This document shows, one piece after another, positions 6,478-62,402 of a stretch of DNA of 64,000 nt. Location: positions 18,786,501-18,850,500 of the forward strand of contig NC_090793.1 in the NCBI RefSeq assembly GCF_040054535.1, written 5' to 3'. The translations under genes and the position numbers were made by a program. Each line of letters opens with the position of its first letter. Position 1 is the first letter of the stretch. Source of the stretch: Antennarius striatus. Lineage: Eukaryota > Chordata > Actinopteri > Lophiiformes > Antennariidae. The notes under the pieces are model-generated. The model did no database searches. It saw only the letters and a program-made list of their open reading frames with translations, and was not told where the DNA came from.

Positions 6478-8618
<2,141 letters not shown>

Positions 8619-8870: not shown

Positions 8871-10045
8871 AAGTCAAGTGTTTTTTTTTTTCCAATCCTC
8901 CGCAGCTATAAGCTGTTAAAGGTTATAACATAATGATCATAATGTTATCGCTGATTGGTGTTCATTCAATTTCAATTTAGTTTTTAATATTTAATTGGAG
9001 CTTGTGTCTAAAAACATCCAGTGGTGAACTCACACGACATCACGTCGTCTTCATCTGATGATGTGACTGCTTCTGAAGCAGTAAGCTGAGGTACATTTCA
9101 CTCATATTTATAATATCTGGGAGATTTTTTTTTTTTACTGCACAACTAAAGCTAACAAAGTGCTGACATCTCATCTTTCATTTTAAAAAGTTAAGCACAG
9201 ATAACCACGGGTTCCATTTCTATGTTTACAATAACTAGAAAACGAATTGGCACCTCCGCCAACTACCAGCTGCTTCAGTTCAACCTTATCCAGATTTAAA
9301 TCTGATGGATCCATGTTGTATGTATATTTGCACCACATTACATACATGTAAAAAATGAGTATTAATCACATTTAAATTGGATTCTTGACGTGAATCAGGT
9401 TAGCTTTTTTTCCCCGTCGATTTCAGTTGTTACTCAGCTAGTTCAACTGCTGGGGTTAACTTCTAATGTCCAGATCTAATGTCCAGATGATGGTAGTAAA
9501 GCCTGTGTTATTTAAATTCAAGATGCCAAGAAATAAAAACCATATTTTTAAAGAATGTCAGATGATTTAATACTGATGTCCTCTGAGATTCTGAACTCAC
9601 CTTCCTGTTGCAAGTCAGAAAAGCCACCCTGTAAGAAAAAAAAAAAGCACTTTCTTCTCATATGCAGTCCGGATGAATCCAGGCATTAATGCTAAAGATG
9701 TAACTGTCAGGCCAAGGATACACAAGGAAGTCCCTGCAGCCTCGCCCTTTAACCTCCAGTGTGAGCTGAAAAGAACCGTCTCAGCTTTTGACGAAGGACT
9801 TGTATTTATGCTGTACTTTTATGAATAAACATGTCAACAAGTATGAGTTTCATAGTTTCTCAGAAATAGCCTGAACAGATAAAACAATTTACACAAAATG
9901 TACACTACTGACAGTGGTGGGAGAAAGTTCAATTCCTGCATTTTTCATCCAGTCTGTCCATTGCAGGACTCACCCAAAAAGTCACATGGTTTAAAACTGG
10001 TCATTAAAACCACTGTTAATCCGTGAACATCGAGTAGTCGAACAG
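8871..10045. other. intergenic, AT-rich; zinc-finger gene 3' region
   Basis: No coding signal is recognised. AATAAA signals at 9532-9537 and 9824-9829 are candidate 3' ends for the plus-strand zinc-finger gene, giving a 3' UTR of about 0.9-1.2 kb. Confidence 0.4.
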
Positions 10046-10201
10046 TACAGTATTTTCCACACTATAAGGTGCATCTTAAAGCCTATAATTTTCTCATAAA
10101 CCTACAGTGCGCCTTATAATCCGATGCGCATAATATATGAAATAAATTATAAAATAAGCAATTCATTAAAGGTGCGCCTTACAGTGCAGAAAATACTATA
10201 A
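10046..10201. mobile_element. 156-bp MITE with terminal inverted repeats
   Basis: TACAGTATTTTCCACACTATAAGG at the left end is mirrored at the right (ending GAAAATACTATA), with GTGCGCCTTATAATCCG-type internal motifs common in fish genomes. TA at both ends fits a Tc1/mariner-superfamily target duplication. There is no coding capacity. Confidence 0.6.
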
Positions 10202-28368: not shown

Positions 28369-31300
28369 TCACACGGACGTCTCTGACTGCAGCCTCATGA
28401 CAAACTTGTGGCTCTTCGGGTCGATGAACTCCTCGCCGAGCCGCAGGAAGGGCAGTGGCGTCACCATGACGACCAGGGAGAAGTCCAGGCGCCGCAGGGA
28501 GAACACCAGACCCTGACGCAGGGCCGAGGTCACTGGCTCCTCGCTCACCAGAGTCCACTGGCGCCCCCTGCCGCTCTGCTGCTGGTACTGCATGGTGGGG
28601 CCTGGAGAGAGGTAGCGCTCCAGAAAAGCCTACCAGGAAGAAAAAAGGAGGTTAGTCCTGCTTAAATAAGGACTATTAAAAAGTCAGTCATACATATATA
28701 TGTATATGGTTAACGCACAGCAGGTCTTAGAAACTATAGATATCATACAGTGTAATCCTGCTTGGTATGTTAGATCTTAAATTAAGACTATAGAAATGAG
28801 TCCAAGATCATTTAGAGGAACCTGCAGCTACAAAAAAATTAAATCGCATTAAAGCATTTTTTAAAATATTTTTTATATTTATATTTACTAGCAAATTTAT
28901 GAATATTTGTAATCTTTTTCCAGATGTTCCAATTTATTTAATTGTGCATTGGTAACAATGCATTTTTGGACTGCTATTGCTTTTTATTAAGATTTAAACT
29001 TTTAAATAATAAAAGAATATATTAATCGGTATTAAAACACCAGCTTAGAAACCCATCTGGCTGAGGAGCCACAGAGTTGAATTAGAAGGGGGTGAATTTA
29101 CCTTTGGTGTCATGTTGTGTGTGATGCAGAACTGCAGGTGTGTGAGGATGCTCTCCATGCTGTGGAACGCCTGCTGCCGCGTGGTTCTCAGGTACTTCTG
29201 CATGGCTCGCGCCATCGGGGCGAAGATGGCCTGAGCTGCCTCCCGGGGGTCCATCACCTCCCTCGGGTGTTTCGGGGACGAGGCGACCTCGTCTTCGTGG
29301 AGACGCTTGATGTGTGTGAACGCCTCTTCCACTGCTACAACCAACCTGCAGGAAAGGTCGTAAGCATTATTTTGTGGATTTTCCTTCCCATAAATCACTT
29401 ATTCCATTTTTCCTATGAGACGTGTTATTTGTGAAAGGTGTTTTCCTCCGACCTGGCTTTGCGTTTGCGGATCCTGCGGTCCATCTCGGCCTCCTCGTAG
29501 TAGAACTCATTGTGGGAGTTGTCTCTCCTGCGGGCAGCGGCTGCTATCATGGCCCGGGACTGGCCTGTGGAGTTGTTAGTGGTGTTTTCTACAAGGTGAC
29601 ACACACAGAAGGAAGCGTTAAAATATTTAAAACATGTTCTTATTATGAGAAAAGACAGAATAATTAGTGCAGCATCAGGAAAGAGTATTAACATTAAACG
29701 AGGATGAAGACTCAGGCGTGTGAGGCTACACCTACCATCCAGGGAGTAAACCTTGAAGCCGGTCATCTTCTTGGACAGGATGGACTTGGGCAGGTTGAGC
29801 AGTGCGGGGTTGTAGACGGGGAAGTCGCTGTAATAACGGTCCAACAACCAGACGGCCGCCCTCTGGATGCTAAAACATAGCATCAGTCGTCAGTCAGTAC
29901 AGGTGGAACACCAGCGGGACAGAGGTACACCCGACACACAGTCAGAGACACCAAGGTGCTGCTTATGGGGCCTCAACCAGGTCGGATTAATGTCATGTAG
30001 TCTTTATTAACTTAAAAAATGTTTGTATGACCAAATTTACATGCAAATTTACATGTAAACGAGAGATATGTGACCAAAAAAACTGTTTTAATTCATTAAA
30101 AAGGGTAAACTGCATTTTGAAAAATCTAAAATTACATTTAAATATAATGTAAAATAAAATAAATTTTAAAAAATTAATATAAGCATATAAGAATATAAAA
30201 AATTATTTTCATTGGATGTAATGTACAACAGTAAAATCTGATACCAGCAGTCTTTTCTAAGCTGTGATCACGTTTAAATTCTACAAATTCTAAATTCTAC
30301 CAGGTTTAAATAAACTCAGCTTTCATCGAGTCGGAGACCGATCCCGTCGGTCGTCCGTCGCTCACCTGAGGTGACCCACGTTGTAGAACCTACTGGCTCC
30401 GTCGGTGCTCCGCACCACTTTGAGGCAGAATGCCGGCTGCAGGTGTCGCACCTCCAGCAGCACCAGCGCCAGGTACTGGATGAAGAGCAGGGCGTCCACC
30501 AGCGAGGCGGCGTACTCCACGATCCCCCGGTAGTCCCGCTCCCGGGGCTCCAGCACGCGCACGCCGTAGAACAACCAATAGGACGCCACGAACAGGAAGA
30601 CCAGCACCATCAGCAGGCAGCGGAAGACGAAGAAGCGCGGCAGCGTGGCGCGGGGGGGTCGCAGGAACAGCGCCCAGGAGGAGATGAGCAGGACCAGCAG
30701 CTTGAAGGCCAGAGACACGTAGAGGCCCTCGCACGGCGTCCCACAAGGCTCCAGGGCGTCCCGCCACAGGACCTGAGGCAGGATGAGGAAGGCTAACGGC
30801 GTGACCAGGGCGAAGAAGCTCAGGCAGCCCCCCAGCGCGGGGCCCACGAAGCGCTTGCATTCCAGCGGAGTGGAGTCCTCCAGATCTTTGGTGACGCGGG
30901 TCAGGTCCTCGTTGGAGATGCTGTGTTCGGAGGTGCCGGTGACCACCGTGGTGGTCTCGCCCCAGTTGTCATCCTGTCGCGGAGAGAAAAAGATTCATCT
31001 TAAGGATTCATTCCACCAAATATAAAACAAACTAAAGAGCAGTAACTAATGAACCGGAGGAGTCGAGACGTGTTTCTGACGTCTGTCGGTTCATTTTCCA
31101 GCAGGAAGTGACAAAATAAGGATGTTTAAGGATTTCTACAACATCAAAATAAAAATTGGAATTATTTCCGGAAACTTTTGAGGAGGTGTGGGTCCGAGAA
31201 GTTACAGAAAAATTTCTCTAGAGACCTCTTTAACCCTTTTGAATCCTTAAAAACAATTTTTTTAAAAACCCCGACGTCTTTCACTTTTTAAAACTTGTTA

Positions 31301-31586
31301 TCGATAGTACAAATTACATTTAAGATCAATTCATATGCAAGACTTTTTCAGACCTTGTGATAACATATAAACTATGGAACACCAGAACAGGACTGACACC
31401 CCAGTGCCCAGAAGCCTCAGGCGGGGGCCGACAGAACAGCGACTGACCCGCTCGTCTCCCCGGGTCGACTCGGCGTCCAGCAGCGGCTCTCCTGGCGTCT
31501 GGATCGTCACCGATTTGTCCCCACGGCTGCTGCTGTCCCGGCTCTTGGAGCGATGGCGATCCCTCCGATCCCTGGATGGAGATCAG

Positions 31587-31617
<31 letters not shown>

Positions 31618-31779
31618 GGGTACCGCTATCGCTTCAACACACAGCAGCTCCCAGTTAAACCTCAAGCGGACCAGATGTCAGAGGTCATGTGGGCGGGGTC
31701 GTTCCCACCTGTGCTTGCGGGAGCTCCTGGAGTGGGACGACTTGTAGGAGTATCCCGAGTACTGCGACTCGTTGTCCAT
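28369..31779 (-). CDS. vangl2: Van Gogh-like 2, core planar cell polarity membrane protein
   Basis: Seven coding exons join in frame (525 aa from the usual ATG): 31709-31779, 31448-31571, 30366-30973, 29736-29869, 29453-29588, 29102-29345, 28369-28629. The N-terminal arm ([20 protein letters not shown]) carries the Ser/Thr clusters phosphorylated in the family. Exon 3 encodes all four membrane segments (for example [15 protein letters not shown] and [19 protein letters not shown]). The cytosolic C-terminal half ([40 protein letters not shown]) is highly conserved, and the end ETSV is the class I PDZ ligand for Scribble/Dishevelled-type partners. Residues matching mouse Looptail sites (Asp of VDALLF, Ser of FSLVV) are intact. 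Wording such as [12 protein letters not shown] and [16 protein letters not shown] matches fish Vangl2 as I recall it rather than Vangl1. Exons 2 and 5 use GTC-type donors. The frame continues upstream of the ATG (see the extension entry). Confidence 0.96.
31586..31612. repeat. (CA)n microsatellite beside vangl2 exon 2 acceptor
   Basis: About 13 CA units begin 14 bp from the acceptor of vangl2 coding exon 2 (exon start 31571), so a UG tract sits just upstream of the 3' splice site in the transcript. Confidence 0.85.
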
Positions 31780-31977
31780 GTCTCGGGTTGGCGGTGAGCG
31801 GGCTGTACGAGCCCCGCCTCCTCCTCCTCCCCCCGCGCCGCGCCGCTCGCCGACCCCTCCCAGCTGGATCTTGCGCTCGGAGATGGACTTGGTGGAGAGA
31901 GTCAGGGGCAGTTTGAGCAGGTCAACTTTACTCCTGAGGGAATCTATCTTGGAGGCCGATGAGGAAGGAGGAGAAAA
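31780..31977 (-). CDS. vangl2: in-frame N-terminal extension of vangl2 upstream of the usual ATG
   Basis: Reading upstream from the annotated ATG (31777-31779), the same frame stays open to TAG at 32005-32007 with no ATG in between. From the ATA at 31945-31947 there are 56 codons beginning I-D-S-L-R-S-K-V-D-L-L-K-L-P, then TLSTKSISERKIQLGG, then a Gly/Arg-rich hinge into the usual start. The ATA has A at -3 and G at +4, a strong context. Two possible acceptors, after CTCAAG (exon start 31977) and after TCCAAG (31947), are both in phase 0. The first 30 or so residues look protein-like, not like random GC-rich 5' UTR. I recall, unverified, reports of an N-terminally longer mammalian Vangl2 made from a near-cognate AUA; this would be the fish counterpart. 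It could instead be plain 5' UTR. Confidence 0.5.
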
Positions 31978-32079
31978 CTTGAGGGGGGGGGTGGGGGTGG
32001 GACGCTACGGAGAAGGAGGGATGACGGGTGGGAGGGGATGGCGGGTGGGCGTGTGGCGAGGAGGGAGACCTGGGATCTG

Positions 32080-33180
32080 AAAGAGGCGGGACAAGAGACG
32101 GAGACGGTCAGACTCGTCTGAACGTCTTCAGGGTTCCAACAGAACCAAAGATCTCTGGAAATTTACTTTCATCATGTTTAATGGAAACCCTCTCGTTTTT
32201 CTGTTGCCCCGGTAACAAACCAGCCTTCCACGGGGTTCATCCCACTGTCACATGACTCTCCTGCAACACCGACATTTACATCCGTTCATCATTAAAGATG
32301 GTAAAAATAAATTCTGCTAGCAGGGGGAAACGAAACCAATCCAGTGTCTGACTGGAGGCTTCATGGTTCATGATCAGATAAAAAAATACAAGAAAGTAAA
32401 AAACATGTAAACCAGAAATGGACATTTTTGGAAATTTAAATAAAATCAAAGAAATAAGGATAATTAAATAATTACCAATTTATAAACGCATGACAAATCA
32501 TGACCTTACAATAAGAACAACAGCAAACTGAATATTATTTTACAGCCAAGCTAATATTAGTTTGTCCACATAATGAGCTCAATGTATTCATTCATTATTG
32601 ATCCGCTGGAAGTTCCTCCGAATCGTCTTGAGTGATCAGTTTGCTCTAAATTTAAATTAAATATCTTCATCTTGAGATAAAATTTGTGTTGCAACTATTT
32701 TTTTATTTTATTCTTGAGTGCTTTCACAATCATTTTCTAGACATTTTGAATAACCAAAAGACTACAAATGATCCGCTAAAAACTGCCAAGACATAATCTT
32801 TTAAAAAAGCTTTTCATAAATATATAAAACAGAGAAAAACAGAAAATCAACACCTTGTAACAGAACATTTGTGAATGGTTTTCTTTTAGAATGAAATGCT
32901 GACAAAATTAAAAACTGCTTGTTGTCTAAATAAAAAAATTGTTTCCAAAATTCCTAGAATAAAACTTTGCTGTGAGAAAATTGCACAATTTAGAAAACAT
33001 ACTGATAAAAAAGAGAGAAATTGGATCTGGTTTCAGACGAAGAATCAAGCAGTTTATTTTACCAACATAACGTAAAACGACCCTTTATAATAAGAGTCAA
33101 TGAGCGGTGTGTGTGTGACCTCTGACCCCTGGCGATCCGTGAGCACACACTCCCCTCCTCAAACGGTCTCTATCCTCACA
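32080..33180. other. vangl2 5' intron/upstream sequence, no exon seen
   Basis: Mostly AT-rich with no recognised coding signal, between the vangl2 extension and the CpG island. Confidence 0.45.
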
Positions 33181-39281: not shown

Positions 39282-39319
39282 ACACGTTAGAAATTGTCGC
39301 CTAACAACTTCTAATACAC

Positions 39320-39813
39320 GTTTCAAACTCTAGGCCCAGGGGCCAAATGTGGCCCGCCATATCATTTTATGTGGCCCCATAAAACGTCAGTGTCCAAAAA
39401 TAGGTTATAAGTGTGCTTTGAAAAAAAAAAAACAACTACATTCCCACAATGCAGTACTTCAGCCCATTTTAACTTTGATTAAAATGTTTTGAACAAAGTT
39501 AATGCCGTAACTTCATGTTATTTTTCTTTTATTTATTGGATAGTTTGATCCTTGATTGACGTAGTTCTGTGGGTTTAATAACCTGACAAGTTAAAAGGAT
39601 TGATGTTATATAACACAGCAACAAGCAAACATGTTTTCTGTGTAACTGTAATGTTTGGAACTCGAATGAGTAATAAATTCAGTTATTTCGCATTAAGGAG
39701 TAGTTACATTTATGTTACATTACATTTAGTTACATTTATTAGTTACATTTGGCCCTTTGAGGACAGCTATTATGACAGTGTGGCCCTCGGTGAAAATGAG
39801 TTTGACACCCCTG
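39320..39813. mobile_element. non-autonomous hAT-like element
   Basis: The right end (GGTGAAAATGAGTTTGACAC, then CCCTG) and left end (TTTCAAACTCTAGGCCCAGG, then GGCCAAATG) are the recognisable, partly decayed ends of a dispersed fish element whose intact end reads CAGGGGTGTCAAACTC. The left terminus is truncated by a few bases. The centre is AT-rich with no transposase. Confidence 0.6.
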
Positions 39814-41414: not shown

Positions 41415-44400
41415 TTACATGGAGTCGTCATCGTCTTCGTCGTCGTCTGGGAAAAAAACAACAACAAAAAAAAACCTTTGCCGCTGTCTTGCGTGTACCT
41501 GCAACAGCCTGTCCGGATGGGGTTGGGATAGAAGTAGTCGTCGTAGTAGTTTTAGCAGTAGTAGTGGTCGTGGGCCTGCGTTGTCTCCGCCCAGATCATC
41601 AGTAGGTGGCGTTGGCCGGCTCCCTACCTGAGCTGAAGAGCATGTCGGCCTTGGAGCTGATGATGTATATCAGCGCCAGCGACGTTAAGAGAACGCCGAC
41701 ACCGACACCCAGAGTCAGCATCTGGAGAAAAATAACAGCAACGCTTTAAATTTTTATCCACTGCTCTTAACAGTTGTGTCTGTTTGCATCTGATGGATTT
41801 ATGTGATCGTGTTTGCTTATTTTTGGTTCCACAGCCACTGAATAGATGTGGTTTGTAAGCAGTAAAGTGCGAGTGTGCGAATCAACTTTATAAGTAAAAT
41901 TAGAATAATAAAAAAGCTGGAAAGTTCACCGAATCTGTTGCGAAGATTGACTCCATGTCCAAGAAATAACATTTATTAGAGGATAATATACTAATATTAA
42001 GAAGATATGAGAAAGATGTGGCTTTGAATGTAGAATTTCTATCCAATCTGAGGAGTGGGGGGTTTGTACCTCCAGGTCATGACTGGCCACCAGGAATATC
42101 CGTCCTTTAATGTCCTTCCACCGGGACTCGGTCCATGTGGAGAAGTCTCTGGAGGTGTAGTCTTGCTGCTCGAAGGCTGGCGACAGCGCTTTGGAGAGGC
42201 GGACCGTGGAGCGGACGCAGAAACCTTCCCGCTCTGTGCTGTTGGGAGGCGCTGCTCCTTGAACCCACATGTAATAGTACATCTGTGGGAGGAGAACGTT
42301 TCCTTTATTTTATCCTTACATCCTTAGAACATGAATCAAGACTCCTGCTGATGTTACCGTCCTTTAAAGCGGGTCACATTTGAGTTTTAGAGGTGATTTT
42401 CATAAAGTTAATTTATAGTCAACCTCTGAAAGTCTTACATGTTTTTTGTCTTTGTCGTCCTCGTCTTCTCTCTGGTTCTGGCAGTTCTCCTGCGTGATGT
42501 TGGTGGCGCTTCCGGTCAGGTTAGCCAGCAGGTACTGGACCAGAAGAGTCGGCTCGCTGGACTGCTGAGACACACCGATGTAGAAGTTTGTGGGCCTATT
42601 AGCTGCCAGACAGACGACAGAACAAAGGGTTAAAGGTCACGTCCGGTCACCCGTAGACCTCCTGCTGGTTTGGGGATCAACAGAGCAGAGATACCAACTA
42701 CTCTTCTACTCAGATCAGGAAAGAATGAATTCAAGTAGAACGAATCTTAAGCTCATTTTACCGAGGTGGCTTGCGAGGTCGGAGGGGATTAACTGTTGGA
42801 ACCAGGAGTTATTCGACCGAACAAGGAATCCATAGAGCATTTTGGTCACCTGAGTGGATGAAAACATTACAACACAGACTGTCAAAAAAAAAACATTCAG
42901 CAGAAACGACAACAGAACAGATTCCACTGGTATCTTGAGTTACTCCTGGATGTGGGAACAATGAACGTGTACATGAGATGAGTCGTTCTTTAACACTCAC
43001 CATCTGACTGTCTGCGTTGATGCTGCTCAGCTGGGTTTCCGCTCCTCCTGCCTGTACGTACAGAGCCCGAGCCACCATGGTGGCCACTTCCGTCAGAGCC
43101 TGAAAGACGCGTGAGGGGGGAAAAAAGCTTCATGATGTGTTTAGAACTAACGGTGTAAGACATTTAAAAGAAATGAAAAGCAAGTTTAAGTCGAGTTCAA
43201 ACTCAACAAAGACTGAAGAAACAACAACATGGAGTTGAATATTAGATAAGAATCATTACCTTTGCAGTCTCTGTGGTAAACTCCATCTGCTCATCTGATG
43301 TCATGTTGGGGGGGTAGGATATATTCAGGTATTCTGCATTATCATACATACTCTCATAGAACCTGACGCAGAACAGAAGGATGAGTTGAAACAAATAAAG
43401 GACATAAAGGAAATCGCAGTGGAGAAACCCTGAATCACCTGTTGGTGAACACGGACTGATGGTCCTGAAGGACGACGCCGGGGATTTGTTGAGCTCGCAA
43501 GAAACGCTGGAAAGACGAGGGAGGAAGTGGCTGAGAGACGTTGGGCTCCTCCACCGAGATGCTCAGACCTCCTGCAGCCAGCTGCAGGTTTTCAACGAGC
43601 TTCCTCACCTGAAAACACACACACGCACACACACTTGGTCTCTCAATTCCAAACATTAAAAGGTTTTAGACAGTACTAATAAACCAGAGTATGACGAGAG
43701 TAGACGGTCTCTAGTGATGCCTGTTTAAAATCTATTTTTACGCACTCCTGCAGGGATCACTGTCCTTGTTATTGTGTTTGTGTAACCATGTGGTGTGAGA
43801 CAGGAAGCTCTTCAGGACACCGACCTCATCATTGATACTGCTGTTCCTCCGAGACACAGGGTCAGAGTGAAGCCACACCTTGGATTCAGAGCGAAGTCCC
43901 ACCTGTGGTGAACAGAATCAAAGTTAATCCACTACACACACAGAAATGTCGATTTTCAGGTCAGATATTAATTTAAAAAGTCAGATTTTTTAACATTTTA
44001 TGACCTTGGAAGAGGTTGTACCGACATGTTTTGTCACTACTGGGTTTTCTATTACTACTTATTAGTGGACACGTCCAGTAAAGTTGTTTGTAATAGTAGT
44101 AATGTTATAATTACATTACACACACAAACACATATTCTGTATTCCTGAGCAAAACATTGAAACTATGTCATTCTGGAACCAAATGCTGGCTGTATGAGTT
44201 CCTTAAGTACTCTTTATTATAAAAACATTTTTGTTTTTCTATTTTAAAATAAATCTCACTGAAATTCAGTTATAGCATTACTACTTTGATTGAAAACCTC
44301 GCCGTGTCCCCTTAGAATCGAGCCGTGCTGAACATCCGGTAAACCAGCTCCTACGTGAGGCTCCACAGCTCACCTGTCCGATCTCCAGCACCGAGTGGAT

Positions 44401-45523
44401 GTTGTCCAGATCCACAGCAAACTGTTTGTTCTGCATGTCGTACACCATCCTGGAACTGCCGATGTAGTCAAAGGTTTCCTTGAGTCAAAATCAAAACACA
44501 CACAGAAAAAAATTAGGACTAGGGCTGATGATGCAATAGGAAATCTGGCAAGTTGATGAGTGCGATGATGAGTGCGACGGCATGGAAGCTACCGACCCCC
44601 TGAAAGAAGGTGTAGAGGATGGTGCGGTTGGGATGAGCCTCCTGCGTCGCGTTTCGCAGAGCGTGAGCGGCTGCCAGTAATGTGATGAACCCCGAGACGC
44701 CGCTCTCCGCTCCTGGAGCGATGTCAAAGAAAAAAGACCGGCTGTCCAACTGAAAAAACAAAAAAAGGTGTGCAGTTCGTTATCACATTTAGAATAATTT
44801 CAAATGGAAAACTGTTGTATTACCGGAGCTGGAAAAACATCTTTTGCTTTTATCTGTGCCTTATATGTGATGTCATGGCCTACATTCCTATATCACAAAA
44901 CTAATTTGGACTTGGAGAAATCACTGCAGGATCCTTTTGAAAAACCGTGTTCACAAACTCGTGTGGGCAGGCTGACAACAAACAAATGTAATGTAGTGAA
45001 ATATGACCACAGGACTATTTTAATGACTTCTAATAAGTAGAAAGAAACCCTTTTCTGCGACTCACCCTGGCTGCTGCTATGACCACACTCTCCCCATCCT
45101 TGTGGCCCTTGGCTGTGTTGTTGAGGGTCCTGGTGGAGGCCCAAACATTATAGTCCTCCAGTGGGTCACAAACAATTTCTAAAGGGAGACACGAAAAAAA
45201 GACTTTAGCCATACAGATAAAATTTAACTTTCTACAACAATAGATTTTCTCTCCTATATTTAGAAAATAAGGGAGGAAATTGGAGAAAGAAAATCACCAT
45301 ATCCACTTTTGCTCATATCGAAGCACCAAAAAAAATCACAAGTAAAAATGAAAGGTTCCTCATGTTGTATGAACACCTGGGTTGAGGCTGAAGTTGATGC
45401 CGTTCCTCCTCATGCAGGTGGCCGTGTCGGTGACGGCGGACATGTGGGAGTACAGCTGCATGGCACAGAGCGGGTACTGAGGGGCGCTGCCATTCACGCC
45501 ACGGTTATGGTCCAAGTAACACT

Positions 45524-50631: not shown

Positions 50632-62402
<11,771 letters not shown>

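Follow-up and report, generated by a model that had tools for sequence, protein, structure and literature searches.

A putative AUA-initiated Vangl2-Long extension in two vangl2-type genes of Antennarius striatus

Does the open reading frame ahead of the canonical ATG of a vangl2 gene in the fish Antennarius striatus encode protein, and, if so, at which codon would its translation begin? We analysed a stretch of 64,000 nt of NC_090793.1 (GCF_040054535.1), hereafter the window, in which the gene lies on the minus strand; coordinates are positions in the window, and exon positions are contig coordinates minus 18786500. A preliminary description made from the letters of this DNA had reported a vangl2 frame open for 75 codons (32004-31780), without an ATG and closed by a TAG, together with an ATA at 31945-31947 that has A at -3 and G at +4 and stands 56 codons before the ATG. 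All of these were found again at the same coordinates; the strand, which had been left unstated, is minus.

The locus and its gene

The elements of the open frame, the vangl2 exons and the neighbouring genes are as follows (splice cuts are marked by a slash).

32077-32079, minus strand: candidate 3' splice site CAG/ATCCCA, with 32076 as first exonic base; putative exon start
32005-32007, minus strand: in-frame TAG; alternatively a splice acceptor TAG/CGTCCC, hence possibly intronic
31948-32004, minus strand: open frame 5' of the ATA, pyrimidine-rich; its final three codons are the same in the paralogue on C23
31945-31947, minus strand: proposed near-cognate start ATA (A at -3, G at +4), in the context tccaagATAGatt
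31780-31947, minus strand: N-terminal extension of 56 codons, IDSLRSKVDLLKLPLTLSTKSISERKIQLGGVGERRGAGGGGGGGARTARSPPTRD
31855-31947, minus strand: first 31 codons of the extension, better conserved (tblastn match to C23 at E 4e-8)
31780-31854, minus strand: Gly/Arg/Pro-rich linker, fast-evolving in alignments with the C23 paralogue
31777-31779, minus strand: canonical vangl2 ATG, gacATGg
31709-31779, minus strand: first canonical coding segment, donor GT at 31708-31707 (by eye)
31448-31571, minus strand: second canonical coding exon, AG and GT boundaries by eye
30368-30979, minus strand: large vangl2 exon (Pfam Strabismus, E 1.4e-106)
29728-29874, 29449-29613, 29099-29356 and 28372-28632, minus strand: other vangl2 coding exons (Pfam matches)
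43432-44752, minus strand: nicastrin matches
51545-52201, minus strand: COPI_C (COPA C-terminal) domain
within 51545-60625, minus strand: WD40 repeats, presumably of COPA

Pfam matches place four vangl genes in the genome, namely that of the window (on C18) and those on C23, C24 and C12. The solved structure closest to the window gene is Vang-like protein 2 (335 bits; Vang-like protein 1, 321 bits), and the C23 gene is likewise slightly nearer VANGL2 (298 against 287 bits); C24 and C12 are nearer VANGL1, at 246 against 225 bits and 184 against 177 bits, respectively. A tree built from one exon joins the window and C23 copies with a support of 100 and sets C24, C12 and human VANGL1 apart from the window, C23 and human VANGL2 with a support of 96, the C23 copy being the faster-evolving of its pair (branch length 0.20 against 0.04). 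Two vangl2-type and two vangl1-type genes are consistent with the teleost genome duplication, from which the pair formed by C23 and the window probably derives.

Along the minus strand the gene order is vangl2-ncstn-copa, and we take nicastrin and COPA to be the neighbours of human VANGL2 as well. Elsewhere in the window, a 299-codon open frame with C2H2 zinc fingers lies on the plus strand (7719-8615).

Homology of the extension within the genome

The gene in which the extension stands in frame ahead of the canonical AUG is a vangl2 and not a vangl1. Its openness alone is unremarkable at 65% GC: in a first-order Markov simulation of the local sequence (20,000 trials), all 75 codons stayed open in 43% of sequences and the last 56 in 53%, and openness was dropped as an argument for coding with this chance of 0.43. 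What exceeds chance is homology to the C23 paralogue. A whole-genome DNA search with the extension region found one other place, C23:2510801-2511058, at 73% identity, where 53 codons lead from an ATA at the corresponding position to the ATG. The 19-nt word GGCCTCCAAGATAGATTCC, which spans the ATA, is identical in the two copies, and the blastn gaps between the extensions (6, 3 and 6 nt) are all multiples of three. The two extensions align with a score of 120, whereas shuffles average 22.5 and 0 of 2000 attain that score. A protein search of the genome with the 56 residues, in which scores were computed for the best candidates only, returned ten rows, comprising the extension itself, C23 at E 4.5e-7 and eight at E 0.04 or worse; the window and C23 are the only places matching at E <0.04 among the candidates scored.

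Comparison of the window with 50 kb around the C23 gene (E 1e-5) likewise gave ten DNA rows, of which five are other vangl2 exons, one covers the extension together with the first coding exon and four are repeat-like. Stretches at 39316-39709 (three places near C23) and 10045-10189 in the window, which also occur near the C23 gene, are apparently dispersed repeats.

The vangl1-type genes carry no such extension beside their first exons, as found for C24 (in about 1.2 kb upstream) and C12, in which in-frame stops precede the ATG by 32 and 4 codons, respectively. A tblastn search of the C24 and C12 stretches analysed first, made with the first 31 residues, gave nothing better than E 1, and neither locus is among the rows of the genome-wide protein search. 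The best tblastn row in 45 kb of C12, SLRSEVDFLRL (C12:15455014-15455070, E 0.050), is probably a chance match, some 30 kb 5' of the first exon at 15484860.

Within this genome purifying selection is at most weakly indicated, since no significant lowering of dN/dS below 1 is seen between the two copies. For the first 26 codons dN is 0.269 and dS 0.371 (p 0.55), and for the full 53-codon alignment 0.445 and 0.56 (p 0.36); the 23 adjoining canonical codons, which served as a positive control, give 0.098 and 0.613 (p 0.006), all p values being Fisher tests on rounded counts. The higher dN of the extension relative to the canonical codons (p 0.07) is suggestive only. Changes in the first 26 codons number 9, 3 and 7 at first, second and third positions, with the first position changed most, and the +1 frame shows by eye about equal protein identity between the copies but contains stops. 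A Pfam search with the extension plus Met returned 0 families at E 0.01, and the best row of a solved-structure search with the extension, at E 0.79, belongs to unrelated chains. Structure prediction for the extension and N-terminus, run on two sequences, was uninformative (mean pLDDT 54.9, pTM 0.12), with no helix of four residues and no strand of three.

Vangl2-Long and competing explanations

The first in-silico prediction of this extension is said to be that of Ivanov et al. in 2011. Vangl2-Long was described by Walton et al. 2024 (PMC11065751), and the AUA-started long mammalian form mentioned in the preliminary description is borne out, as human VANGL2-Long starts at AUA-144: a construct with a 342 nt leader yields both forms in human cells, and changing AUA to GCA abolishes the long one. 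Peptides cover three residues of the extension in human and four in Xenopus. In Xenopus, Long-directed knockdown causes polarity defects, morpholinos over the AUA deplete about 70% of Long but <20% of short Vangl2, morphants of either form regained ciliogenesis when given the other, and an intermediate band was attributed to a further start (PMC11065751). VANGL2 (AUA) was listed for GENCODE by Fedorova et al. 2022 (PMC9789052), and PMC11317171 describes the ATA as nearly fully conserved in mammals and tetrapods, with ATT in some birds, and the extension region as conserved in fish species. A listing of the literature searched found no further papers devoted to the Vangl2-Long extension; none of the matches listed was by title a paper on teleost vangl2 duplicates, and the portions available of PMC3460870 and PMC5986786 contain nothing on the extension.

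Like published Vangl2-Long, the present case combines a vangl2 gene, an in-frame AUG-less extension of about 50 residues and vangl1 genes without it, and, as in Xenopus, the AUA has A at -3 and G at +4 (PMC11065751). It differs in its length, 56 codons against 48 in human and mouse and 53 in Xenopus, in its Gly-rich linker, in the two vangl2-type copies that carry it, and in being known from sequence alone. The GENCODE entry is alike in extension and start codon, its evidence being, in the portions available, human-centred and without fish sequences (PMC9789052, PMC11317171).

Comparison across species was based on oligonucleotide targets printed in papers, along with the C23 paralogue. In zebrafish, the sequence targeted by the morpholino MO4-vangl2 agrees with extension codons 2-10 (31919-31943 in the window) at 21 of 25 nt, each of the four mismatches falling on a third codon position (hypergeometric 0.0055), and in the window frame it reads SLRSKVE against SLRSKVD; its agreement with C23 is 19/25 nt, with three of six differences at third positions. 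This oligonucleotide excludes the zebrafish ATA and its distance to the ATG, and the zebrafish ATA is taken from the legend of PMC11065751, in which legend and text place a zebrafish row in the alignment of Fig. 1G. The Xenopus Long morpholinos correspond to AAA ATA GAG TCG CTA AAG, with start and context as in the window; 12 of their 23 nt agree with the window and 11 with C23, as do three of the first seven residues with the window. By eye, the human antibody peptide (residues 30-47) does not obviously resemble the linker of the fish extension. Protein homology to the known extensions is found through the zebrafish 25 nt and, weakly, through the Xenopus 23 nt, and the anatomy is that of an AUG-less extension with an in-frame AUA in good context some 50 codons upstream, here 56.

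A fish counterpart, whose existence the preliminary description had raised, is borne out by the same place, the same ATA and context, and SLRSKV as also read from the zebrafish morpholino. As to purifying selection on the extension protein, the zebrafish differences all fall at third positions, and dN/dS, calculated from two paralogues only, is not significantly below 1. Taken together, these comparisons support the window extension as a member of the already known, conserved and non-AUG-initiated Vangl2-Long. A fish extension is not new as such, since PMC11065751 aligned zebrafish and PMC11317171 states conservation in fish; new here are the C23 copy with the same extension and the vangl1-type genes without it beside their first exons. 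Read from the raw genome sequence itself, the extension independently confirms an AUA-initiated form that is deeply conserved in vertebrates. Furthermore, the retained duplicate represents a natural replicate, in which the linker has been retained less well than the AUA, the sequence around it and the first ~30 residues, a pointer to the part that matters.

We consider it highly probable that this stretch codes for the N-terminal extension of Vangl2-Long, started at the AUA by a minority of ribosomes, with the canonical AUG giving ordinary Vangl2. Initiation at AUA 31947-31945 by a minority of scanning ribosomes, favoured by the A at -3 and the G at +4 and most likely using initiator Met, would yield a Vangl2 with 56 extra residues, of which the first ~30 are the better conserved and the Gly/Arg-rich rest would act as a variable linker. 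The remaining ribosomes would pass by leaky scanning through the AUG-free leader to the well-placed canonical AUG and make ordinary Vangl2; ATG is absent from all frames in 31780-31947 and 31948-32080. The long form would join membrane Vangl complexes, tuning planar polarity. The anatomy of the extension, its homology and position, the paralogue with the same start and the absence beside the vangl1-type first exons are direct observations; AUA use and function in human cells and Xenopus come from the literature, and we infer its use in this fish and the role of the linker.

The 75-codon frame holds 12 in-frame near-cognate codons, the ATA included (AAG and AGG counted), and some of the others also have a purine at -3 (CTG 31920-31918 and CTG 31911-31909 among them), which means that the ATA need not be the sole or main start; CTG 31920-31918 and similar codons might give rise to additional minor forms. 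An RNA structure downstream of the ATA that enhances initiation was rejected as a candidate: in the two copies, 179/200 and 196/200 shuffles equal or exceed the folding stability of the RNA 3' of the ATA, which is less stable than most of them (z 1.2 and 1.8).

The same residues could be coding and be reached instead from a spliced upstream AUG exon or from another of these in-frame near-cognates, the ATA then being an internal Ile codon. Both copies have several AG sites accompanied by pyrimidine tracts, located at the ATA or 5' of it, and in the window the 19 nt preceding the CAG/ATCCCA acceptor contain 89% pyrimidines, the best tract among the candidate acceptors, equalled by that of AAG/TTTTCT at 31977. 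Such an arrangement would also fit the DNA similarity to C23, which extends ~26-30 nt 5' of the ATA into pyrimidine-rich sequence and then falls (identities per 6 nt from -42: 2, 1, 4, 5, 4, 4, 6), and the C23 frame, which is open for 78 codons further 5' of the ATA (2511033-2511269), across a CT-repeat, with two in-frame ATGs (2511248, 2511203). That C23 stretch is perhaps intronic, and an AUG start within it is also possible. On the other hand, the human 342-nt leader makes both forms and loses the long one with AUA to GCA (PMC11065751), the last three residues alone are identical between the copies among those directly upstream, and an unsystematic look found no upstream coding exon. We regard a start elsewhere as improbable.

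Still less probable is a conserved 5' untranslated or regulatory element of DNA or RNA that is open in the vangl2 frame by accident, although openness is cheap at high GC, dN/dS is near 1 between the copies and similarity continues 5' of the ATA. The gaps relative to C23 are in frame, the zebrafish differences fall at third positions and the RNA fold is not unusual, and the published peptides of human and Xenopus enter the extension (by three and four residues, respectively; PMC11065751). A chance open frame, for which the 43% of simulated sequences open over 75 codons could be cited, is refuted by homology to C23 (E 4.5e-7), to zebrafish and to the published family, and its probability is negligible.

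The zebrafish morpholino target

The preferred reading, a Vangl2-Long extension started at the AUA, bears on a reagent already used in zebrafish. The site of MO4-vangl2 is called 5' UTR in PMC10659374, where the terms Vangl2-Long and isoform are absent; aligned with extension codons 2-10, the target (PMC7250581, PMC10659374) would lie over Vangl2-Long codons. MO4-vangl2 is said to phenocopy vangl2 mutants (PMC7250581), and its phenotypes are largely rescued by mRNA without the morpholino site (PMC10659374), an indication that short Vangl2 can replace the long form in large part. In Xenopus, morpholinos directed at this region preferentially deplete Long, and MO4 perhaps does so as well. It is conceivable, as a tentative extrapolation from the two gene copies, that both vangl2-type genes keep AUA dual starts and so give four Vangl2 proteoforms, and that MO4 loss may be partly a preferential loss of Vangl2-Long. 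Because MO4 overlaps the extension, a published reagent is already at hand for testing what the long form does in fish.
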